Shown here: in pieces, positions 18,012 to 62,342 of the stretch
How the letters are laid out: every line of letters begins with the position of its first letter
Numbering within the stretch: position 1 is the stretch's first letter
Assembly (NCBI GenBank): GCA_027622555.1
Contig: JAQBYJ010000008.1
Location: 1 to 64,000, forward strand
Reading direction: 5' to 3'
Length of the DNA stretch: 64,000 nt
Source: Verrucomicrobiota bacterium
GTDB taxonomy: Bacteria; Verrucomicrobiota; Verrucomicrobiia; Opitutales; UBA2995
Position numbers and translations under genes: made by a program
Notes under the pieces: generated by a model
Databases searched by the model: none
What the model was told of the DNA's origin: nothing
Seen by the model: only the letters and a program-made list of their open reading frames with translations

Positions 18012-18935
18012 ATGAGACTTCCCCACCTAAACACTCTCCTGGTCATCCTAAGCTTTCAGCTACTTTCTGTTGCTTCAAACGCACAGGACAAAACTTCGTT
18101 TTCCTGGATTAATCCGCTGACTCAAATGGAGTTGAATGCAGCACCTGGCCTCAGCCATCATACTTATAAAAGTAAGGTCATTGGCAAGGAAGTCGGCTAC
18201 TGCGTGTTCGTACCTCCAGGCTACGACCAACCTGAAAACCGGAATCACCGCTATCCGGTTATTTACATGCTCCACGGCGGAAGACCGGGAGATGAATCCA
18301 GGTTTGCGAACAGGATGCCATATATTCTTGAAGCCATTAACGATGGGAATCTCATTCCTACAATTGTGGTTTTGAATAATGGGGGTCCAGTAAGCCATTA
18401 CAACGTACCAGGACGGGCTGAGGCCGTGGGCAAAGATTTGTTCGTTAATGAATTGATCCCCTTAATTGATCAAACATTCCGAACCATCGCAGACAGGAAG
18501 GGCCGTGCCCTGCAGGGGTATTCCCAGGGAGGTCGTGCAACCGCGCGAATCGGATTTGGACATCCGGAGCTATTTTCACAGCTTGTTATGGGAAGTTCAG
18601 GTGCGGCCGCCGAGAAACGCATACAAGACACTGGAGGAACGGAGAGTGAAAATCTGGTGTTCTCTCGCGGTGATGACATGTGGACCTATGCAGAAACCTA
18701 TGCGAAGCATTTTAAGGAAACGTATCCGGTCGAACTCTATCTCCATGTCGGTGATGCTTTGGACTCAAACTACGAAGGGAATGTGGCTTACGACGCATTC
18801 CTAACCCGCATCGGACTCGCCCACGACTTTGTTGTCTTATCCAATCAAAAGCACGGTGGGACAGCCTACGTGCGACTACATTCCGGTATTATTGCTTTTC
18901 AGAACTACTCTTTCGAAAAAAGTTTAAAACAATAG
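18012..18935 (+). CDS. exported alpha/beta-hydrolase esterase (esterase D / feruloyl esterase type)
   Basis: A 307-residue secreted hydrolase with a signal peptide ending near residue 24 (SVASNAQ). The oxyanion-side block is YMLHGGRPG and the nucleophile elbow is GYSQGG (Ser171). A late His in QKHGG and an Asp near residue 250 (VGDALD) are the likely triad partners. It belongs to the putative-esterase family that removes acyl groups from sugars or hydroxycinnamates. Among sulfatases and sugar transport genes, a role in de-esterifying plant or algal polysaccharide is plausible but not proven. Confidence 0.78.
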   Translation: MRLPHLNTLLVILSFQLLSVASNAQDKTSFSWINPLTQMELNAAPGLSHHTYKSKVIGKEVGYCVFVPPGYDQPENRNHRYPVIYMLHGGRPGDESRFANRMPYILEAINDGNLIPTIVVLNNGGPVSHYNVPGRAEAVGKDLFVNELIPLIDQTFRTIADRKGRALQGYSQGGRATARIGFGHPELFSQLVMGSSGAAAEKRIQDTGGTESENLVFSRGDDMWTYAETYAKHFKETYPVELYLHVGDALDSNYEGNVAYDAFLTRIGLAHDFVVLSNQKHGGTAYVRLHSGIIAFQNYSFEKSLKQ

Positions 18936-19203
18936 CAAAACCCAAACAGGATAAGCGGTTGCGTAAAAAAATTCCATTCGCACTAACCCAAAACGCTAGT
19001 CGGATTCGGCTGATTGTAGGCGAGAGTTTTTATCGGAAAGCAAAATAAGTTGCCGAAATGGGAGTAGGTGATTTTTTGTTAATCACCTGTTTCTAGCGTT
19101 TGACAAACATTAAGTATGTGTAGACCAAGGATTGATACCAGAACCAGCAAAGAATATTTTTTTTGGAATTTGCCGGAAAACTCCTAGTCGAAAACGATCA
19201 ACC

Positions 19204-20112
19204 ATGAATACAATCAACAATTCTCTTCGCTACGATGCCGGGAATTTTGCCTACGGAACCTGGCGAATCCTGGACCAAAAAATACCGGCCACCATTGAGG
19301 ATCTGGCTCAGCGTCTTCATGCCTGTCTCGAACAAGGTGTTACAACGCTCGATACAGCTGAGATTTATGGTGGATATCTGGTTGAGAAAGCAGTGGGTAA
19401 GGTTCTCAAAAGTCATCAAAAGCTGCGGGAAGGACTTAAAGTGGTGACCAAAGCGGGGATCGACGTTCCCTCTGCGGAAAAGCCACACGCCAACCTGCCC
19501 CAATATAACGCCACAGGTAAAAACCTTATCCATTGTGCGGAAAAATCGCTACGATTACTCGGCATTGATGCCATTGATCTATTCCTCGTTCATCGACCCG
19601 ACTGGCTGACTGATCCTGAGGATACTGCGACCGGGCTCCAACAACTGCTCGACGACGGAAAAGTAAAAAATGTTGGTGTATCCAATTATACAATTCATCA
19701 GTTCGAAACGCTCGACCTTCTCCTTGGAGGCCAGCTCGCGACAAACCAGGTAGAATTTAGTCCGCTTAAAATGGCACCGCTCTACGACGGAATTTTTTCC
19801 CAGTGTCAGCAGAAGAAAATAAGACCCATGGTCTGGTCACCCCTGGGAGGTGGAACCTTGTTTCGTGATCAGGAAGGCCCGGCGAAACGACTTCGGGATA
19901 AGGTCGTGGAGTTGTCTCCCAAATACAACAATGCCACCATCGACGCACTGATTTATGCCTGGATCCTGGCGGTTCCATCTCGTCCCACAGTCATTTTGGG
20001 AACGAACAAGCTTGATCGAATTCTCAACGGAGCCAAAGGTGCAACTATTGATCTGGAGCGGGAGGATTGGTACGCCATGTGGGAAGCCGCGAAGGGCCAA
20101 TCTGTTCCCTAA
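19204..20112 (+). CDS. aldo/keto reductase
   Basis: An NAD(P)H-dependent (beta/alpha)8 oxidoreductase of about 302 residues. The ATG at 19204 (MNTINNSLRY) is chosen because the upstream extension has no homology-like content. Family blocks are LDTAEIYGGY with the catalytic Tyr, the Lys in VVTKAG, FLVHRPDWLTDP, NVGVSNYTIHQ and the NADP-binding RPTVILGTNKLDRI. It most resembles the YdhF subgroup. It precedes a solute symporter by 47 bases and a Gfo/Idh oxidoreductase after that, likely one sugar-catabolic transcript. A hairpin (AGGTGATT/AATCACCT) at 19066-19088 lies upstream and may be regulatory. Confidence 0.85.
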   Translation: MNTINNSLRYDAGNFAYGTWRILDQKIPATIEDLAQRLHACLEQGVTTLDTAEIYGGYLVEKAVGKVLKSHQKLREGLKVVTKAGIDVPSAEKPHANLPQYNATGKNLIHCAEKSLRLLGIDAIDLFLVHRPDWLTDPEDTATGLQQLLDDGKVKNVGVSNYTIHQFETLDLLLGGQLATNQVEFSPLKMAPLYDGIFSQCQQKKIRPMVWSPLGGGTLFRDQEGPAKRLRDKVVELSPKYNNATIDALIYAWILAVPSRPTVILGTNKLDRILNGAKGATIDLEREDWYAMWEAAKGQSVP

Positions 20113-20159
20113 GCTCAAACACATATTTTTCTAAATCAGTATACTTAGTCTAATACTCC

Positions 20160-21704
20160 ATGATCGACTTCTTAATTGTTTGCCTCTACTTTGTCATCGT
20201 TTTTGCGGTCGCGATCCGGGGCAAAACCTCCAAAGATGTCACAGTCGAAGAATACTATTTAAATTCCAGAAAATTGGGCTGGTTTTCGATCGCTTTCTCG
20301 ACGATTGCCACGAATGTCCAGGGACTTCAGTGGATAGGGTACATTGGATCAGCCTACCTCTACGGACTCGCTCAAGCCAATTTCGAGATCAATGCGATAC
20401 AGGGCCTGTTCCTGGCGGCCTTTATTTTTGTCCCGATGTACTTCCGGGAGCGGGTCATTACGATTACCCAGTTTATAAAAACCCGGCTTGGCAACACAGT
20501 TGCGCTGATCTATTCCCTCACCAATATATCTCTTTTTTCAACCTTAAGCCTGGGGGTTAGTCTGTTCTGGGGAGGTTATGCTGCCGACCTGGTATTTGCC
20601 GACTACCTGTCATTTATCCACGAAGACCGTTTCACGCGCATTTCTATTTTAATCTTTGGGTTGGGATTGTTGTCAGCGATTTATACTTATCTGGGTGGTT
20701 TGGGTGCCGTGGTAAGGACTGATATTGTTCAATTTTCCATCTTACTTTCGGGTGGAATAATTTTAATGCTTATTACCATTCATGAATTGGGAGGCTGGTC
20801 GCAACTCTACGTGAAGACTGGAGATAAAATGCACCTGCATTTACCTGCGGATCATAAGACGCTTCCCTGGATACATGTTTTTGGAGCCTTTCTTTTAAAT
20901 ATTAACTATTGGTGTGCGAACCAACGGATCGTGCAACGCTCCCTTGCTGCCAGAAGCCTAAAGGACATTCAAATAGGTTTGATGGTGGGCGGGGTCATGA
21001 AGTATTTCATGGCCGCAGTTGTCATCATTCCAGGAATCGCGTTGATCGGAATTTTGGGAGAAAACGCCCTGGAAGATCCTGATTCAGGCTTTCCCTATTT
21101 GGTAAACACCTACCTTCCGATTGGATTAAAAGGTCTTATATTGTGTGCCCTCTTCGCTTCCATGATGAGTACCGTGGATTCAACCTTCAACTCCCTGGCT
21201 ACGCTTTGGTCCATCGACATTTATAAACCCTATATCAACAAGTCAGCTACCGATTACCAAGTCGTTCAGGCCGGAAAAAATGCCATTTTGATTTCTTTCA
21301 TCACCGGATCTTTTATGGGGATAATCCTCCTCTACATCAAACTCAACGACACGGGTGCCGCATTCACACATACCCTTAACGAGCTTCGTTATTATATAAA
21401 TACAGGGATTGTAGTTCTGATTTGTGCGGCCGTATTCCTGGTTGCACCTAAACCTCGCCTAACCCTGTTTGCTTTTTTTGCAACCGTTCCTCTTAATTTG
21501 ATCTTCAAAGCCGTTTGGCCGGACATGAATTATTTTGTCCGACCCATGTGGCTCATCCTGATTGGATTTACTGTCATTTACCTGGGCTCCAAGGGAGGTT
21601 TTACCAGGGACAAACTCACCTACGAACCTGCGACACCGTTGATAGGAAAATTCGGAATAGGCATGTTGTTTTCGCTCGCTGCGGTTCACATCATTTTTCA
21701 TTAA
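20160..21704 (+). CDS. sodium:solute symporter (SSS family)
   Basis: A 514-residue membrane protein with about 13 transmembrane segments. It shows SSS-family features: the N-terminal YFVIVFAVAIRGK then VEEYYLNSRKLGW, the central LGGLGAVVRTDIVQF and the Na-site region LFASMMSTVDSTFNSLATL. It should import a sugar, sugar acid or similar solute with sodium. Placed between an aldo/keto reductase and a Gfo/Idh oxidoreductase with short gaps, it probably brings in the substrate they oxidise or reduce. Confidence 0.87.
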   Translation: MIDFLIVCLYFVIVFAVAIRGKTSKDVTVEEYYLNSRKLGWFSIAFSTIATNVQGLQWIGYIGSAYLYGLAQANFEINAIQGLFLAAFIFVPMYFRERVITITQFIKTRLGNTVALIYSLTNISLFSTLSLGVSLFWGGYAADLVFADYLSFIHEDRFTRISILIFGLGLLSAIYTYLGGLGAVVRTDIVQFSILLSGGIILMLITIHELGGWSQLYVKTGDKMHLHLPADHKTLPWIHVFGAFLLNINYWCANQRIVQRSLAARSLKDIQIGLMVGGVMKYFMAAVVIIPGIALIGILGENALEDPDSGFPYLVNTYLPIGLKGLILCALFASMMSTVDSTFNSLATLWSIDIYKPYINKSATDYQVVQAGKNAILISFITGSFMGIILLYIKLNDTGAAFTHTLNELRYYINTGIVVLICAAVFLVAPKPRLTLFAFFATVPLNLIFKAVWPDMNYFVRPMWLILIGFTVIYLGSKGGFTRDKLTYEPATPLIGKFGIGMLFSLAAVHIIFH

Positions 21705-54465: not shown

Positions 54466-55179
54466 TTGAACCTGATTCTTTTTAGTCCAACCGAGCTCGC
54501 GAGCCCTCTTTTATTAACCGATCCAAGGGCAAAACATATTCTCAATGTCCTCAACACGCAACAGGATGAATCCTTTGACGTTGGACAAATCAACGGCCCC
54601 CGAGGAAAAGCCAGGTTGATTAAGATAGAAAAGAATTCACTGCTACTGTCGTTCCAATGGGAAAAGGACACTCCGGAACTATACCCCATCGATCTTTGGG
54701 TGAGCTATTGTAGACCTCAAACTTGCAGAAAGATCCTTCAAGAATGTACTTCATTGGGTGTACGAAGTTTTACGTTTTTCGAAAGTGAAAAATCTGAACC
54801 GGGCTATAAAATGAGTCGCCTGTGGACTTCGGGAGAATCTGAGCGACTGATGCTCCAGGGAGCAGGACAAGCGTTTTGTACCAGGATTCCAAAGCTCACG
54901 CTTGTCTCTTCGTTGGAGGATGCGCTTCCCCACGCCTCAGTCGAGGGCAGCCGATTAGCAATGGACAACTATGAATCGACAAAAGAGTTGACCTCCATGG
55001 TTAAGAAAACCCTGCCTCTTACCGTGGCTCTGGGAGGGGAAAGAGGATGGAGTCAAAGTGAAAGAAACCTGCTTAGGGCCAATAACTTCATATTGACCGG
55101 TATGGGAACTCGAGTGTTGAGAACGGAAACAGCCTGTATCGCGGCAATTTCAATCCTTAGAAGTAATATGAAGCTGTGA
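54466..55179 (+). CDS. RsmE-like SPOUT rRNA methyltransferase, second paralogue
   Basis: A 237-residue SPOUT-fold protein with the RsmE layout. The N-terminal PUA-like part starts NLILFSPTELASPLLLTDPR. The knotted C-terminus has VALGGERGWSQSE and TGMGTRVLRTETACIAA, equivalent to the SAM-binding GPEGG and LG-R-LR-ETA motifs. The start is a TTG, 12 bases after the permease remnant stop. It is more divergent than the RsmE at 56086 (GGERG replaces GPEGG) and belongs to the NLILF-type subfamily, so its target base may differ. Its 3' end overlaps rsmD by 30 bases. Confidence 0.8.
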   Translation: MNLILFSPTELASPLLLTDPRAKHILNVLNTQQDESFDVGQINGPRGKARLIKIEKNSLLLSFQWEKDTPELYPIDLWVSYCRPQTCRKILQECTSLGVRSFTFFESEKSEPGYKMSRLWTSGESERLMLQGAGQAFCTRIPKLTLVSSLEDALPHASVEGSRLAMDNYESTKELTSMVKKTLPLTVALGGERGWSQSERNLLRANNFILTGMGTRVLRTETACIAAISILRSNMKL

Positions 55180-55737
55180 ATCAGGTTTAAATATCGCCAA
55201 AGACGGTCCATCTCCCCGCGCCTTACCAAGCTGTTTGATTAACATCCAACCTTCCGAAGCCATAGTAACGCTAGCGGGTTTCTCGATCACTAGGGTTCCA
55301 TCGGGACAAAGCAAGTCTCTGCCGATCCGAAACAGTTCAGCGATAATATTTGGGTAAAGCCGATAAGGCGGATCAGCAAAAACGATGTCAAAGCTCTTGG
55401 GATGAAACGAACTCCATTTAAAAACATCGGATCGAATAAACGAAACAGATGATGGGCTAACTCCCGCACTTTTCGCAACACGCGCAATATTTTCGGTCAT
55501 ACATCGAGCACAATGACGGTCGGATTCAACAAAGACTCCTTCTGCAGCTCCTCGACTCCAGGCTTCCAAGCCATAAGCACCTGTTCCGGCAAAAAGATCA
55601 GCAAAGCGTACCCCCTTCACTTCGTTTCCGAGAGATGAAAACAAGGCTTCTCGAAGTACATCTGCGGCCGGTCTCGTTTTTTGGCCGGTAGGTGACACCA
55701 GTTGGATCCCTCGGGCTTTCCCTCCTGTAATTCTCAT
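55150..55737 (-). CDS. rsmD: 16S rRNA (guanine-966-N2) methyltransferase
   Basis: A 195-residue Rossmann methyltransferase. The N-terminus RITGGKARGIQL and TRPAADVLREALFSSL are RsmD hallmarks. The SAM site is FADLFAGTGAYGLEA and the catalytic motif is FADPPYRL. It methylates G966 in the 30S P-site region. It is convergent with the RsmE-like gene upstream, overlapping at 55150-55179. Confidence 0.93.
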   Translation of the reverse strand: MRITGGKARGIQLVSPTGQKTRPAADVLREALFSSLGNEVKGVRFADLFAGTGAYGLEAWSRGAAEGVFVESDRHCARCMTENIARVAKSAGVSPSSVSFIRSDVFKWSSFHPKSFDIVFADPPYRLYPNIIAELFRIGRDLLCPDGTLVIEKPASVTMASEGWMLIKQLGKARGDGPSLAIFKPDSQLHITSKD

Positions 55738-56085: not shown

Positions 56086-56796
56086 ATGTCAGATTTTCGC
56101 AGCTATGCCAAAAACTTGGACTCTGAGGAGAACCGGATCAAGCTTTCGCCTTTTGAGTCACATCATCTGGTAAACACCAATCGGGCACGCAAAGGAGATT
56201 TAGTGGTAGTGTTTAACGGAATGGGAATTGAATGGAACTGTACTCTTGATGAAGCGGATAAGCGATGCGCAAGTCTTCAAAAATTAACCATTAAGCAATA
56301 TCCCCACAACTTAGTTTGCATAACCCTGGCAATAGGAATCGTCAAAGGAAAGACCTTCGATATTATCTTAAGGCAGGCGACAGAACTCGGAGTCACCAGA
56401 ATCCAGCCTCTACTTACTGAACGTACCATAGTTAACTTGAAAGATGTTTCTTCAAAGTGCGAAAAATGGCAGAGCCATCTCATTGAAGGTTGCAAACAGA
56501 GCGGCAATCCCTGGCTTCCTGAATTGGCAACCCCGGTTGCTTTAAAAACATTCATAGCCCATCATCCCTTAGAGTCGGCGGTTGTGGCCAGTTTGGAGAG
56601 TACTGCGAGGCCCTGGAGCGAAATTAATCCTTTGAAATCTACCACGCTATTTATCGGACCGGAAGGCGATTTTTCAGAGGACGAGTACCGCGAGTTTGAA
56701 TCCAGAGGAGTTGTCCCGGTTTCATTGGGTCCCCATGTTTTGAGATCCGAAACGGCTGCCGTAACGGCGATTGCTCAATTGATGGCTAAATTTTAA
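56086..56796 (+). CDS. rsmE: 16S rRNA (uracil-1498-N3) methyltransferase
   Basis: A 236-residue SPOUT methyltransferase. The N-terminal PUA-like domain contains LSPFESHHLVNTNRARKGD. The catalytic domain has GKTFDIILRQATELGVTRI and the knot motifs FIGPEGDFSEDE and SLGPHVLRSETAAVTAI, all canonical for RsmE. It modifies U1498 of the decoding region. A second, divergent RsmE-like gene lies about 900 bases upstream. Confidence 0.92.
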   Translation: MSDFRSYAKNLDSEENRIKLSPFESHHLVNTNRARKGDLVVVFNGMGIEWNCTLDEADKRCASLQKLTIKQYPHNLVCITLAIGIVKGKTFDIILRQATELGVTRIQPLLTERTIVNLKDVSSKCEKWQSHLIEGCKQSGNPWLPELATPVALKTFIAHHPLESAVVASLESTARPWSEINPLKSTTLFIGPEGDFSEDEYREFESRGVVPVSLGPHVLRSETAAVTAIAQLMAKF

Positions 56797-56811: not shown

Positions 56812-57870
56812 CTATTCTTCGCTTTCCAACTGCGCCAACAGGAAAGTTGAAGGAGGAAAATTGAAACTATACAAAATGCGATGCAGCATATCTTTGTTAT
56901 TAGACAATTGCATATAGGATCCGTTGAGCTCGATCGTAAAACTTCCCAACATGCTGGAATGGGTCAACATAAGAATCTGATCTCCAGGATCATTGATAAA
57001 TTGGAGCCTTGCCCACTGTTTCCCGTCGAGCAAGACAACTTCCTGTTTCATAATTTGGTAGCCAGAATACTTACCTATCGCACGATTCACCTCTGAGCGT
57101 AAATAGGTTTTGTTATCCGAATACTCTTTGCTCGAATGACAGTTAAAGTAGATGTGGTCCTCAGTTCCTATGGAAACCACTTGGGAATTTTGCCTTACAA
57201 GCCATCCTTCAGGAACAAACACTTCGAAAGGAATTTCCTGCCCCCTGATAATTGAATCAGAAATCAGCGGTTCTGAATTCCAGGTGGATTCGTCTTCATT
57301 AGCGGTGACCAACACAACGGATTCCGTTGACTCAGCGACTTCAATAGTAAGCTCCTCTGTCAAGTCGTTTTCGATCATTTGGTCGGCAGGTGCCTGATTG
57401 GCGATTTCCATTATCTCGGAGATTCCAAGTAATTCCGTACCGTCAACCTCTACCTGTTCCCCATCTTCGCCCAGATAGTAGATGCTACCACTTTCAGAAT
57501 AGTACTGTTTCCCGCCCTCACCTTCGTAAACGGGTACTTGGCTCAAAGATGTTGTTTCTTTGGGATCAGAAAAATCCATCACAACGGCCACTACGAAAAT
57601 CATCATAATTAAACCTGACCCTTTGCCAACAATTAGAATTAAAGCACTGTCTGGAAATATATCCAACCGTGCCATTTTCCACAAAAAGAAGAGTACCACA
57701 AAAATCGAAAGAGAAGTGCCAACAAAAGGTACTTGGCTGGCCAGAGCTCCAGCAAAAGCAGTGATTGCAAGAGGTTTGAAATACAGCTGAGCCTTCATGA
57801 TGGATTTCCCAATCCACAGGAATGCGATTAGAATGATAGTTTCAATTAGGACCTCGAGAAGTACTTGCAT
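56812..57870 (-). CDS. uncharacterised membrane protein
   Basis: I do not recognise this 352-residue protein. Three or four hydrophobic helices fill about residues 5-100. An acidic, Ser/Glu-rich stretch (about 105-215) contains YSESGSIYYLGEDG, and a C-terminal domain (about 220-345) begins FEVFVPEGWLVRQNSQ and includes KQWARLQFIND. The latter resembles the small alpha/beta lipid- or ligand-binding folds of PsbP/DcrB type only in outline. It is on the same strand as, and 114 bases after, the ketoacyl synthase fusion. Confidence 0.65.
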   Translation of the reverse strand: MQVLLEVLIETIILIAFLWIGKSIMKAQLYFKPLAITAFAGALASQVPFVGTSLSIFVVLFFLWKMARLDIFPDSALILIVGKGSGLIMMIFVVAVVMDFSDPKETTSLSQVPVYEGEGGKQYYSESGSIYYLGEDGEQVEVDGTELLGISEIMEIANQAPADQMIENDLTEELTIEVAESTESVVLVTANEDESTWNSEPLISDSIIRGQEIPFEVFVPEGWLVRQNSQVVSIGTEDHIYFNCHSSKEYSDNKTYLRSEVNRAIGKYSGYQIMKQEVVLLDGKQWARLQFINDPGDQILMLTHSSMLGSFTIELNGSYMQLSNNKDMLHRILYSFNFPPSTFLLAQLESEE

Positions 57871-57984: not shown

Positions 57985-59562
57985 TTACCATTCAAGCAAT
58001 CCACCAGCATAAGTGAGACCAGCTCCCACCGAGCAGAAAATAATCTTATCGCCTGATTCAAAAATGCCTTCTTCAGCGGCCCATCCAAGCGCCATTGAGA
58101 CCGAGGCGGCAGAGGTATTCGCGTATTTACCAATCGTCACAACAAAGCGATCGTATGGAATTCCAACCCGTTTACTAACCGCCTTAAGAATACGTTCGTT
58201 TGCCTGGTGAGGAACCACCCAATCGACATCATCCACAGTCAGGTTTTCTCTATGGAGAGAATCCTCTATGATATCGGAGAACGCCACCACTGCATATTTA
58301 AACACAGCGGGCCCATTCATGGTTAGGTAAAATTTGGAAAGATCACTTCCGGGTTGGGCGATTGGAATCTTGGCACCCCCACCCGCTCGCTGAATGGCCT
58401 CGTATTGATTAGCATCACCGGTTAGGCGCAATCGATGTAATTGAGGACCCTCAGTAGCATCCGTTAACACGGCCGCTCCGGCACCATCTCCAAAAAGAAA
58501 TGCGGTGCTGTAATCTTCAAAGTTTGTAATCCGGGACAACAATTCCGCCGTCACGACCAATAATTTTGTGGCTGTGCCGGATCTAATAAACGCGCGGCCG
58601 GTTTCAAGAGCATATAACCAACCAGAGCAAGCTGCGTTCAAATCGAAGGCCAACGCGTGAGGAATTCCAAGATGTTTCGCGAGAGCACTGGCAGCACTGG
58701 GAACAGGTTGGTCCGGTATGATGGTCGCCAAAATGATCCCATCGATCTCGGATACATCGACCCCGGCCATGGCTAACGCTCGTTTGCTGGCCTTGGCGGC
58801 GTAGGTAGTAACATCTTCATCTGGCTCAGCAACTCGCCGTTGAGAAATGCCAGTGGTTTTAACAATTTCTTCCTCTGTTTTACCTGGAAATTTTTCGAGC
58901 AGCTCTTTGTTGGTTCGCACTTTATCTGGCACAGCAAACCCAATCCCGGCAACACAGACCGTTTCACGCGCAGGGGAAGCTGATGGGGCGGTTTCCAAAG
59001 AAGTAATGGACTCCGGTTGCGTTGCGATGTAGGCTTGAATATCATCTCCAGATACCCGGCCTCCCGGCCCAGTTGAAGAAATTTCGCTAATAGTGGCTGG
59101 GTCAAATCCGGCCTCTTTGGCAATTCTAATTGCTTTGGGCGTCCACCTCAAATTCCCCGTATCGGACACCGCATGAAGCGATGCTCTAGCAACTTGTTTT
59201 GGTATTGGAACCGGTGACCCTTTTACTGCCTGCGTTGCCCGACTCACTTTTACGGCTGGTTCTTCAATTGTATCGGCTGCTGCATCGTTCACTTCAAGAT
59301 GCTTTAAAGATACATCGTCCGTCTCAATCAGGAGGAATGGTGAATTCGCGTCCACAATGTCTCCAGCTCTGACTAATACCTTTTTGACAGTACCTGTGCA
59401 GGGCGCTTCAAAGTCGAATGCCGATTTATCACTTTCCAACTCAGCACACTTCTGGCCCTTTTCAATCAAGTCGCCTGCCTCTATTTCGAGGTCTATCACA
59501 GTTAATTCGTTAACGGTAGCCCCCATGGAAGGGATCGGGATTTGAGCAACGAAAGTTTTCAT
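57985..59562 (-). CDS. lipoyl / E3-binding-domain / ketoacyl-ACP synthase III fusion
   Basis: A 525-residue fusion. Residues 1-82 are a lipoyl domain with Lys46 in ESDKSAFDFEAP, as in 2-oxoacid dehydrogenase E2 chains. Residues about 138-180 are a peripheral subunit-binding domain (WTPKAIRIAKEAGFDPATIS, then GPGGRVSGDDI), which normally docks E1 or E3. Residues about 200-525 are a complete FabH-type synthase with Cys312 (NAACSGW), His452 (VPHQANERI) and Asn482 (ANTSAAS). The E2 acyltransferase core is absent. Acyl groups could thus pass from a lipoyl arm to the synthase Cys and be condensed with malonyl-ACP. It is last in pyrG-kdsA-fusion, 22 bases after kdsA. The substrate and E1 partner are unknown. 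Confidence 0.9.
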   Translation of the reverse strand: MKTFVAQIPIPSMGATVNELTVIDLEIEAGDLIEKGQKCAELESDKSAFDFEAPCTGTVKKVLVRAGDIVDANSPFLLIETDDVSLKHLEVNDAAADTIEEPAVKVSRATQAVKGSPVPIPKQVARASLHAVSDTGNLRWTPKAIRIAKEAGFDPATISEISSTGPGGRVSGDDIQAYIATQPESITSLETAPSASPARETVCVAGIGFAVPDKVRTNKELLEKFPGKTEEEIVKTTGISQRRVAEPDEDVTTYAAKASKRALAMAGVDVSEIDGIILATIIPDQPVPSAASALAKHLGIPHALAFDLNAACSGWLYALETGRAFIRSGTATKLLVVTAELLSRITNFEDYSTAFLFGDGAGAAVLTDATEGPQLHRLRLTGDANQYEAIQRAGGGAKIPIAQPGSDLSKFYLTMNGPAVFKYAVVAFSDIIEDSLHRENLTVDDVDWVVPHQANERILKAVSKRVGIPYDRFVVTIGKYANTSAASVSMALGWAAEEGIFESGDKIIFCSVGAGLTYAGGLLEW

Positions 59563-59584: not shown

Positions 59585-60391
59585 TCAACCGGGAGCCAAG
59601 GATTTCATAAGCTTCCAGATTTGCAACAACTCCTCAACCATTTGAGATAATTCAGCCAGCGGAACCATATTCGGCCCGTCTGAAATAGCTTCATCGGGAT
59701 TTGGATGCGTCTCCATAAAAATGCCATTCGCCCCAGCAGCTAAAGCAGCTCGGGCAAGCGGAAGAACAAATTCTCTTTGTCCATCGCTCTTCCCATCCCC
59801 GCCACTTGGCAATTGGACGCTATGCGTAGCGTCAAATATAGTAGGGTGCCCATTTTCCTTCATCAGGTCAAAACTCCGCATATCGACAACAAGGTTACGA
59901 TATCCAAAAGTAGTTCCTCGTTCCGTCAGCCACATCTCAGCGGCACCAGCATTCTCCAGCTTCGCGACCACATGTTTCATGTCTTGCGGAGCAAGAAACT
60001 GGCCTTTCTTAACATTAACCACACGGCCTGTTTCAGCTGCTGCAACCAAAAGGTCGGTCTGGCGACATAAGAAAGCAGGAATTTGAATCACATCCACTAC
60101 ATCGGCCACTACTGATATCTGGGAAATTCCATGCACGTCGGTTACGACTGGAAACTGATAGCGACTCTTGATTTCAGCCAATATTTCGAGCCCAGCTTTT
60201 AGACCAGTGCCACGAGCTCCTTCCATAGAGGTACGGTTAGCTTTGTCGAAAGATCCTTTGAAAACGATGTTTAGAGCCGGATTATTTTCCCTCAATTCGG
60301 CCAAACATTCCGCCACAGGTCTGCAGATTTCCAAGGACTCCAAAGAACAGGGCCCTGCCAGTAGTAAAAGTTTGTTGGGATCAAATAGCAT
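59585..60391 (-). CDS. kdsA: 3-deoxy-8-phosphooctulonate (KDO-8-P) synthase, metal-dependent class
   Basis: A 268-residue TIM-barrel enzyme joining phosphoenolpyruvate and arabinose 5-phosphate to KDO-8-phosphate for lipopolysaccharide. Blocks are [56 protein letters not shown] and [17 protein letters not shown] at the N-terminus has the Cys that binds metal in the Aquifex-type class, where E. coli has Asn. The metal His, Glu (FMETHP) and Asp (ISDGPN) are also present. Its ATG abuts the pyrG stop directly. Its presence indicates KDO-containing lipopolysaccharide. Confidence 0.94.

Positions 60392-62342
<1,951 letters not shown>

Follow-up and report, generated by a model that had tools for sequence, protein, structure and literature searches.

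The window, a stretch of 64,000 nucleotides from an Opitutales genome (Verrucomicrobiota), contains a gene for one protein in which a lipoyl domain and a peripheral subunit-binding domain (PSBD) are joined to a FabH-like ketoacyl-ACP synthase III (KAS III). It is likely that this fusion is the E2-like part of a two-part 2-oxoacid dehydrogenase/ketosynthase system. Because it almost always occurs together with an E1 that lacks a complex of its own, the fusion probably uses keto acids directly to start lipids, bypassing coenzyme A. It also seems fairly likely that the system is a 2-oxoacid dehydrogenase complex of a new class in the Opitutaceae and their relatives, one in which a ketosynthase acts as the "E2" and acyl groups pass from 2-oxoacid to lipoyl to KAS III to ACP without CoA, priming fatty acids that are perhaps branched and perhaps intended for the outer membrane.

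The first-pass annotation had the position of the gene right (57985–59562); the strand is minus. The reading frame was uninterrupted and had no internal stop codon, and the protein matched Pfam models above their curated cut-offs: Biotin_lipoyl at residues 7–77 (53.0 bits, cut-off 22.1), E3_binding at 141–176 (26.0 bits, cut-off 23.7), ACP_syn_III at 306–372 (88.7 bits), and ACP_syn_III_C at 436–525 (105.5 bits). These matches bear out the earlier description of a single 525-residue chain containing a lipoyl domain, a PSBD, and a complete FabH core. The NCBIfam fabH model TIGR00747 gave a score of 314 bits against a cut-off of 292.1. The AlphaFold2 model (mean pLDDT 79.9, pTM 0.70) had three confident domains connected by disordered linkers at residues 106–135 and 185–197. 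In Foldseek comparisons the KAS III domain matched FabH structures with target-normalized TM-scores of 0.91–0.95 for the top 20, and Cys312, His452, and Asn482 aligned with C112, H244, and N274 of E. coli FabH. Among the best 60 sequence matches in the PDB, no chain covered both the lipoyl-PSBD and the KAS III halves. The features are listed in Table 1.

Table 1 Features of the fusion gene, its neighbors, and its putative partner (positions in the window unless another contig is named)
Feature	Position	Strand	Remarks
Lipoyl-PSBD-KAS III fusion gene	57985..59562	minus	525 aa + stop; Pfam, TIGR00747, AlphaFold2
Lipoyl domain, residues 1–82	59317..59562	minus	PF00364 at residues 7–77; high pLDDT
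Lys46, predicted lipoylation site in ESDKS	59425..59427	minus	K in 79/79 relatives
PSBD (E3_binding), residues 138–178, between two flexible linkers	59029..59151	minus	PF02817
KAS III (FabH-like) domain, residues 200–525	57988..58965	minus	PF08545/PF08541, TIGR00747, Foldseek
Cys312, catalytic nucleophile	58627..58629	minus	81/81 relatives
His452, catalytic	58207..58209	minus	81/81 relatives
Asn482, catalytic	58117..58119	minus	81/81 relatives
Residues 228–236 (K228, E232, T236), replacing FabH T28/W32/R36	58855..58881	minus	Alignment with E. coli FabH
Tyr351, position of FabH Arg151	58510..58512	minus	No Arg in 81 relatives
Val287, position of FabH Phe87, acyl pocket	58702..58704	minus	V in 79/81
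kdsA	59585..60391	minus	22 bp upstream of fusion, same strand
pyrG	60392..61993	minus	Abuts kdsA, same gene run
Orphan E1, α/β-fused, 687 aa	G000:C24, about 18477–20537		Own genome, other contig than fusion

Relatives were collected by scanning GTDB contigs with exact 8-residue patterns, a search that may miss distant relatives. Among the best 80 of 123 loci, those with informative labels were from Verrucomicrobiota, mostly Opitutales. All 44 full-length fused relatives matched all four Pfam models. Residues E43-S44-D45-K46-S47 were invariant in 79 relatives, which confirmed the lysine in the ESDKSA motif to which the first-pass annotation had drawn attention, and the Cys-His-Asn triad was present in 81 of 81; the linkers varied freely. 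In the 44-row alignment the invariant PSBD residues were W140-T141-P142, G152, T164, P166, and D174, and the core of this domain (WTP, G152, T-GPGGR-S-DD) was strongly conserved among relatives. By eye, the PSBD arginine known to contact E3 in Bacillus is seemingly not kept and is I145 here.

At 22 loci the lipoyl-PSBD and KAS III parts were encoded by separate neighboring genes. Because these 22 loci formed one clade (SH-aLRT 100) nested within the fused proteins, we concluded that the fused form is ancestral and underwent a single fission. The halves remained neighbors afterward, which suggests that both are needed and work together. Three more apparently split cases (L088–L090) were contig ends or a frameshift and are not among the 22. 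Lineages with two neighboring ORFs are what might be expected if a frame or assembly error had joined two genes, the outcome named in the first-pass annotation as fatal to its reading; but the fused form occurred in more than 50 separate assemblies, closed genomes among them, the 44 relatives had all the domains, and the split loci were a single nested clade. We therefore ruled out such an error, the chance of which is negligible. One genome (G312:C66) contained a second, diverged copy of the fusion that was 51% identical (L227:6327-7979).

The acyl-CoA donor site was compared in 81 relatives and in 20 canonical FabHs from the same genomes, using the numbering of E. coli FabH. In the E. coli enzyme, Thr28 and Trp32 contact the adenine of CoA, Arg151 stacks on the adenine, and Arg36 contacts the phosphopantetheine (PMC4606726). 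The canonical FabHs retained all four residues in 20 of 20 cases. Among the 81 relatives, W32 was replaced by Glu in 79, R36 by Leu, Val, Thr, or Ile, and T28 by Arg, Lys, or Met, and the R151 position was never Arg and was mostly His; the acyl-CoA donor site formed by T28, W32, R36, and R151 was not found in the fusion family. The clade had changed at 39 of 97 positions that are conserved in canonical FabH, and because it is so divergent, loss of all four CoA contacts stood out from this background only at P = 0.024. A further caveat is that W32 and R36 are missing from other divergent KAS IIIs in sister families as well, although those proteins retain R151 and have lost the ACP residues. A literature search for CoA-site mutants of mycobacterial FabH found no studies. 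The ACP-docking residues K214, R249, and 256/257 of E. coli FabH were retained (K214 in 79/81, R249 in 81/81, and a basic K or R at 256/257 in 81/81). In the acyl pocket, F87 was changed to Val in 79 of 81 relatives (the canonical FabHs had F, M, or I) and F304, the equivalent of which has been linked to primer choice, was Val in all 81. With Val at both positions, the pocket should be wider.

The number of stand-alone fabH genes had been raised in the first-pass annotation as relevant to its proposal. Genomes with the fusion also encoded a separate canonical FabH (22 of the 22 checked); in the genome containing the window this was a plsX-fabH gene pair apart from the fusion, and in the tree the KAS III of the fusion formed a clade separate from canonical FabH. 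The possibility that the fusion is the only FabH of its genome was rejected because a canonical FabH was always present in these 22 genomes. The KAS III of the fusion is an additional paralogue and is distinct from the housekeeping initiator linked to plsX.

The putative partner, an orphan E1, consisted of E1_dh, Transket_pyr, and Transketolase_C (Pfam). Its thiamine diphosphate (ThDP) motif GDG...ENN (G173-D174-G175, E201-N202-N203) and H272 were invariant in 12 sequences. An E1_dh search of 20 genomes showed that the 18 with the system carry a third, α/β-fused E1 beside SucA and usually PdhA (in G013 it was fragmented at contig ends); the two without the system, G040 and G297, were also without the orphan α/β-fused E1 in this search. 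No E2 was beside the orphan E1 in the loci inspected; of 37 orphan-E1 loci, one had an E2 match, possibly that of G144, whose sucB is ~7 kb from the E1. Closed genomes with the system had exactly three PSBD proteins (the E2s of PDH and OGDH, and the fusion, either whole or as its split half), and G040 and G297 had two each. Because there are only three, the orphan E1 is left without a PSBD-bearing E2 except the fusion protein. The earlier reading had pointed to E1 genes without a cognate E2, and this 687-residue protein, found in the same genomes as the fusion, is such an E1. The PDH and OGDH operons of the window's own genome each had their own adjacent E2, so the fusion is unlikely to be the E2 of either. 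Compared with solved structures, the α half of the orphan E1 was nearest BCKDH-α and the β half nearest Bacillus PDH-β. No NCBIfam model scored above its cut-off, and in the β-subunit tree the orphan E1 lay apart from the PDH and E1-E2-chain types.

Several side observations were made on E1 genes. The Opitutaceae genomes G040 and G144 encoded a PSBD-free single chain that combines E1 α/β, a lipoyl domain, and an E2 acyltransferase (L167:5758-9033 and L169:6772-9924), and G297 had a 1048-residue E1 ORF similar in size to this chain. A second, cut-off copy of the orphan E1 was present in G315 (L235:5707-6894). In several Opitutaceae genomes (G144, G162, G192, and G121) the orphan E1 was ~7–12 kb from sucAB.

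Profiles for the lipoyl-PSBD part (positives at least 140 bits, ordinary E2s at most 83 bits) and for the orphan E1 (positives at least 1145 bits, next best at most 535 bits) picked out one identical set of 35 genomes among 388 from Verrucomicrobiota and had no match in the remaining 353. In the main family, for which the two match lists were compared by hand, 207 of 252 genomes had both, 13 had only the lipoyl part, 12 only the E1, and 20 neither. The corresponding numbers for the 165 good main-family genomes were 146, 5, 3, and 11 (Fisher P = 3e-11). One E1-only genome (G583) had a contig cut inside the PSBD. Seven of the genomes with neither, from four genera, were also missing the fusion-type KAS III and kept canonical FabH; the E1, lipoyl-PSBD, and KAS III were lost together in several genera. 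The co-occurrence is in part a product of shared descent, reflecting few gains and several losses and not hundreds of independent events, and the repeated joint loss is its informative part. In several genera the fusion and E1 loci were ~12–20 kb apart.

The gene kdsA was immediately upstream of the fusion in 38 of the 72 relatives with room on the contig, and pyrG was at most 1.6 kb upstream in 54 of the 72. In the window's own genome the orphan E1 was immediately upstream of kdsC-lptC-lptA-lptB (names read from the translations), and kdsC lay within 300 bp after the orphan E1 in 32 of the 37 loci with room. The first-pass annotation had taken the pyrG-kdsA context as pointing to the building of membrane and lipopolysaccharide (LPS). 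That context holds for both partners, with kdsA at one and kdsC at the other, and the link it provides is one of gene neighborhood. These Kdo/LPS neighbors of both genes (kdsA; kdsC-lptCAB) suggest a role in the outer membrane or LPS. A predicted membrane protein of 352 residues with no Pfam match was encoded directly downstream of the fusion (56812–57870, minus strand) and accompanied the fusion only in L013 and L089. Elsewhere in the window, two genes for RsmE-like rRNA methyltransferases (54466–55179 and 56086–56796, both plus strand) flanked an RsmD-like gene (55150–55737, minus strand); all three were named by eye.

The reaction sequence that we propose would begin with the orphan E1, which with thiamine diphosphate would decarboxylate a 2-oxoacid and reductively acylate the lipoyl group on Lys46. 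Thanks to the flexible linkers, the lipoyl domain would be able to reach the tunnel of the KAS III, where the acyl group would pass to Cys312 by thioester exchange. Lipoyl-lysine is about 14 Å long, shorter than phosphopantetheine (about 18–20 Å), and for this reason the lipoyl domain may itself have to dip into the tunnel if the arm is to reach Cys312. Acyl-Cys312 would then condense with malonyl-ACP to give 3-oxoacyl-ACP for fatty-acid synthesis, as expected from the intact triad and the ACP residues, and E3 bound to the PSBD would reoxidize the dihydrolipoyl group. The net reaction would be 2-oxoacid + malonyl-ACP + NAD+ → 3-oxoacyl-ACP + 2 CO2 + NADH, with no involvement of free acyl-CoA. 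The first-pass annotation had proposed both that a condensing enzyme replaces the E2 acyltransferase and that an E1 supplies its acyl groups by way of the lipoyl arm. Judged from sequence, the orphan E1, its co-occurrence with the fusion, the invariant Lys46, and the extra FabH support this proposal, and the lost CoA contacts, kept ACP residues, and joint loss agree with it as well.

Because the acyl pocket looks wider than that of FabH, a primer larger than acetyl is plausible, for example a branched-chain acyl group for iso or anteiso fatty acids. Several cultured Opitutaceae are rich in iso- or anteiso-C15:0 (PMC12193912), which makes a branched primer attractive. Iso and anteiso acids are also made by families without the system (PMC12193912). 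We rejected branched-chain fatty acids as a marker of the system because other Opitutae families have them.

A KAS III that still uses acyl-CoA might employ its lipoyl domain and PSBD, both docking modules, only as an anchor to a 2-oxoacid dehydrogenase complex that makes acyl-CoA nearby, and the genome does contain PDH and OGDH operons. We consider this arrangement unlikely, since the CoA-contact positions were lost across the 81 relatives, the ESDKS lipoylation motif is strictly conserved though unnecessary for a mere anchor, and the associated E1 has no E2 with which to produce acyl-CoA. In addition, neither PDH E1-α nor PDH E2 was seen in the draft genome G014, yet both the orphan E1 and the fusion were present. 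A role for the lipoyl domain in regulation is more improbable still, and we give it little credence. The domain would sense lipoylation or, through E3, the NADH/NAD+ ratio and tune chain initiation without carrying an acyl group. Fatty-acid synthesis provides the octanoyl-ACP for lipoate, and a feedback link through that supply is conceivable, but this explanation would account neither for the orphan E1 that co-occurs with the fusion nor for the loss of the CoA-contact positions.

The acyl-lipoyl donor could also be as proposed and the product different, in the form of a specialized acyl chain or one resembling a polyketide, such as a chain destined for lipid A. The position of kdsA by the fusion and of kdsC-lptCAB by the E1 would fit such a product, as would the separate canonical FabH that covers housekeeping. 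However, the fusion has kept its His/Asn pair and its ACP residues in full, and no specialized ACP or tailoring genes were found by either gene in the loci inspected; we regard a specialized product as improbable. We favor the CoA-free priming of fatty acids by the fusion and the orphan E1.

Like the E2 proteins of PDH, OGDH, and BCKDH, the fusion has an N-terminal lipoyl domain with a DK lysine, a long flexible linker, and a PSBD, and is accompanied by an α/β-type E1. It differs in having KAS III in place of the PF00198 acyltransferase domain, which gave no match in 44 fusion members at E 0.01, in having its E1 encoded elsewhere (on another contig in the window's own genome), and in being split into two genes in one clade. 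Because the acyltransferase domain is absent the fusion is not an E2, although its proposed work is E2-like. With FabH (TIGR00747, PRK09352) it shares the fold, the Cys-His-Asn triad, and the ACP-binding residues, and its KAS III is ~36–38% identical to the closest solved FabHs; unlike FabH, it has lost the adenine and phosphopantetheine contacts to CoA, has Val for F87 and F304, and is an extra paralogue that carries a swinging arm of its own. In E3BP (protein X), too, a lipoyl domain and PSBD are attached to a part that is not a working acyltransferase; in E3BP that part is a degenerate E2 core, whereas the C-terminal part of the fusion is a condensing enzyme with an intact triad. The nearest functional analogue is the pairing of the Bkd complex with FabH. 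In Staphylococcus aureus, for example, Bkd and FabH lead to branched-chain fatty acids (PMC10026030). There, too, 2-oxoacid decarboxylation feeds the start of fatty-acid synthesis, but Bkd frees acyl-CoA for FabH, and the fusion would join the two steps on one lipoyl arm.

No described example of a KAS III with lipoyl and E3-binding domains was found in the open-access literature, in agreement with the earlier statement that no enzyme of this architecture was known. As textbooks describe it, the acyl group moves from the lipoyl arm to CoA, and FabH then takes it from CoA; the fusion system appears to join these steps physically. If true, 2-oxoacid dehydrogenase complexes would have a new type of reaction, and fatty-acid synthesis an entry that needs no CoA. 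With the split form that occurs in nature, the lipoyl-PSBD and KAS III parts are easy to assay apart, and the system could be used as a module that turns keto acids into unusual primers.

Different divergent KAS IIIs were present in other Opitutales families (L264 and L267–L270). These were ORFs of 376–424 residues without W32, R36, and the ACP-docking residues and with R151 kept. Contig C10 of the window's own genome (L096:8319-10230) carried an OleA-like KAS III by α/β hydrolase, FabI-like, and FabZ-like genes, a set that, named by eye, resembles an Ole-type hydrocarbon or similar cluster.
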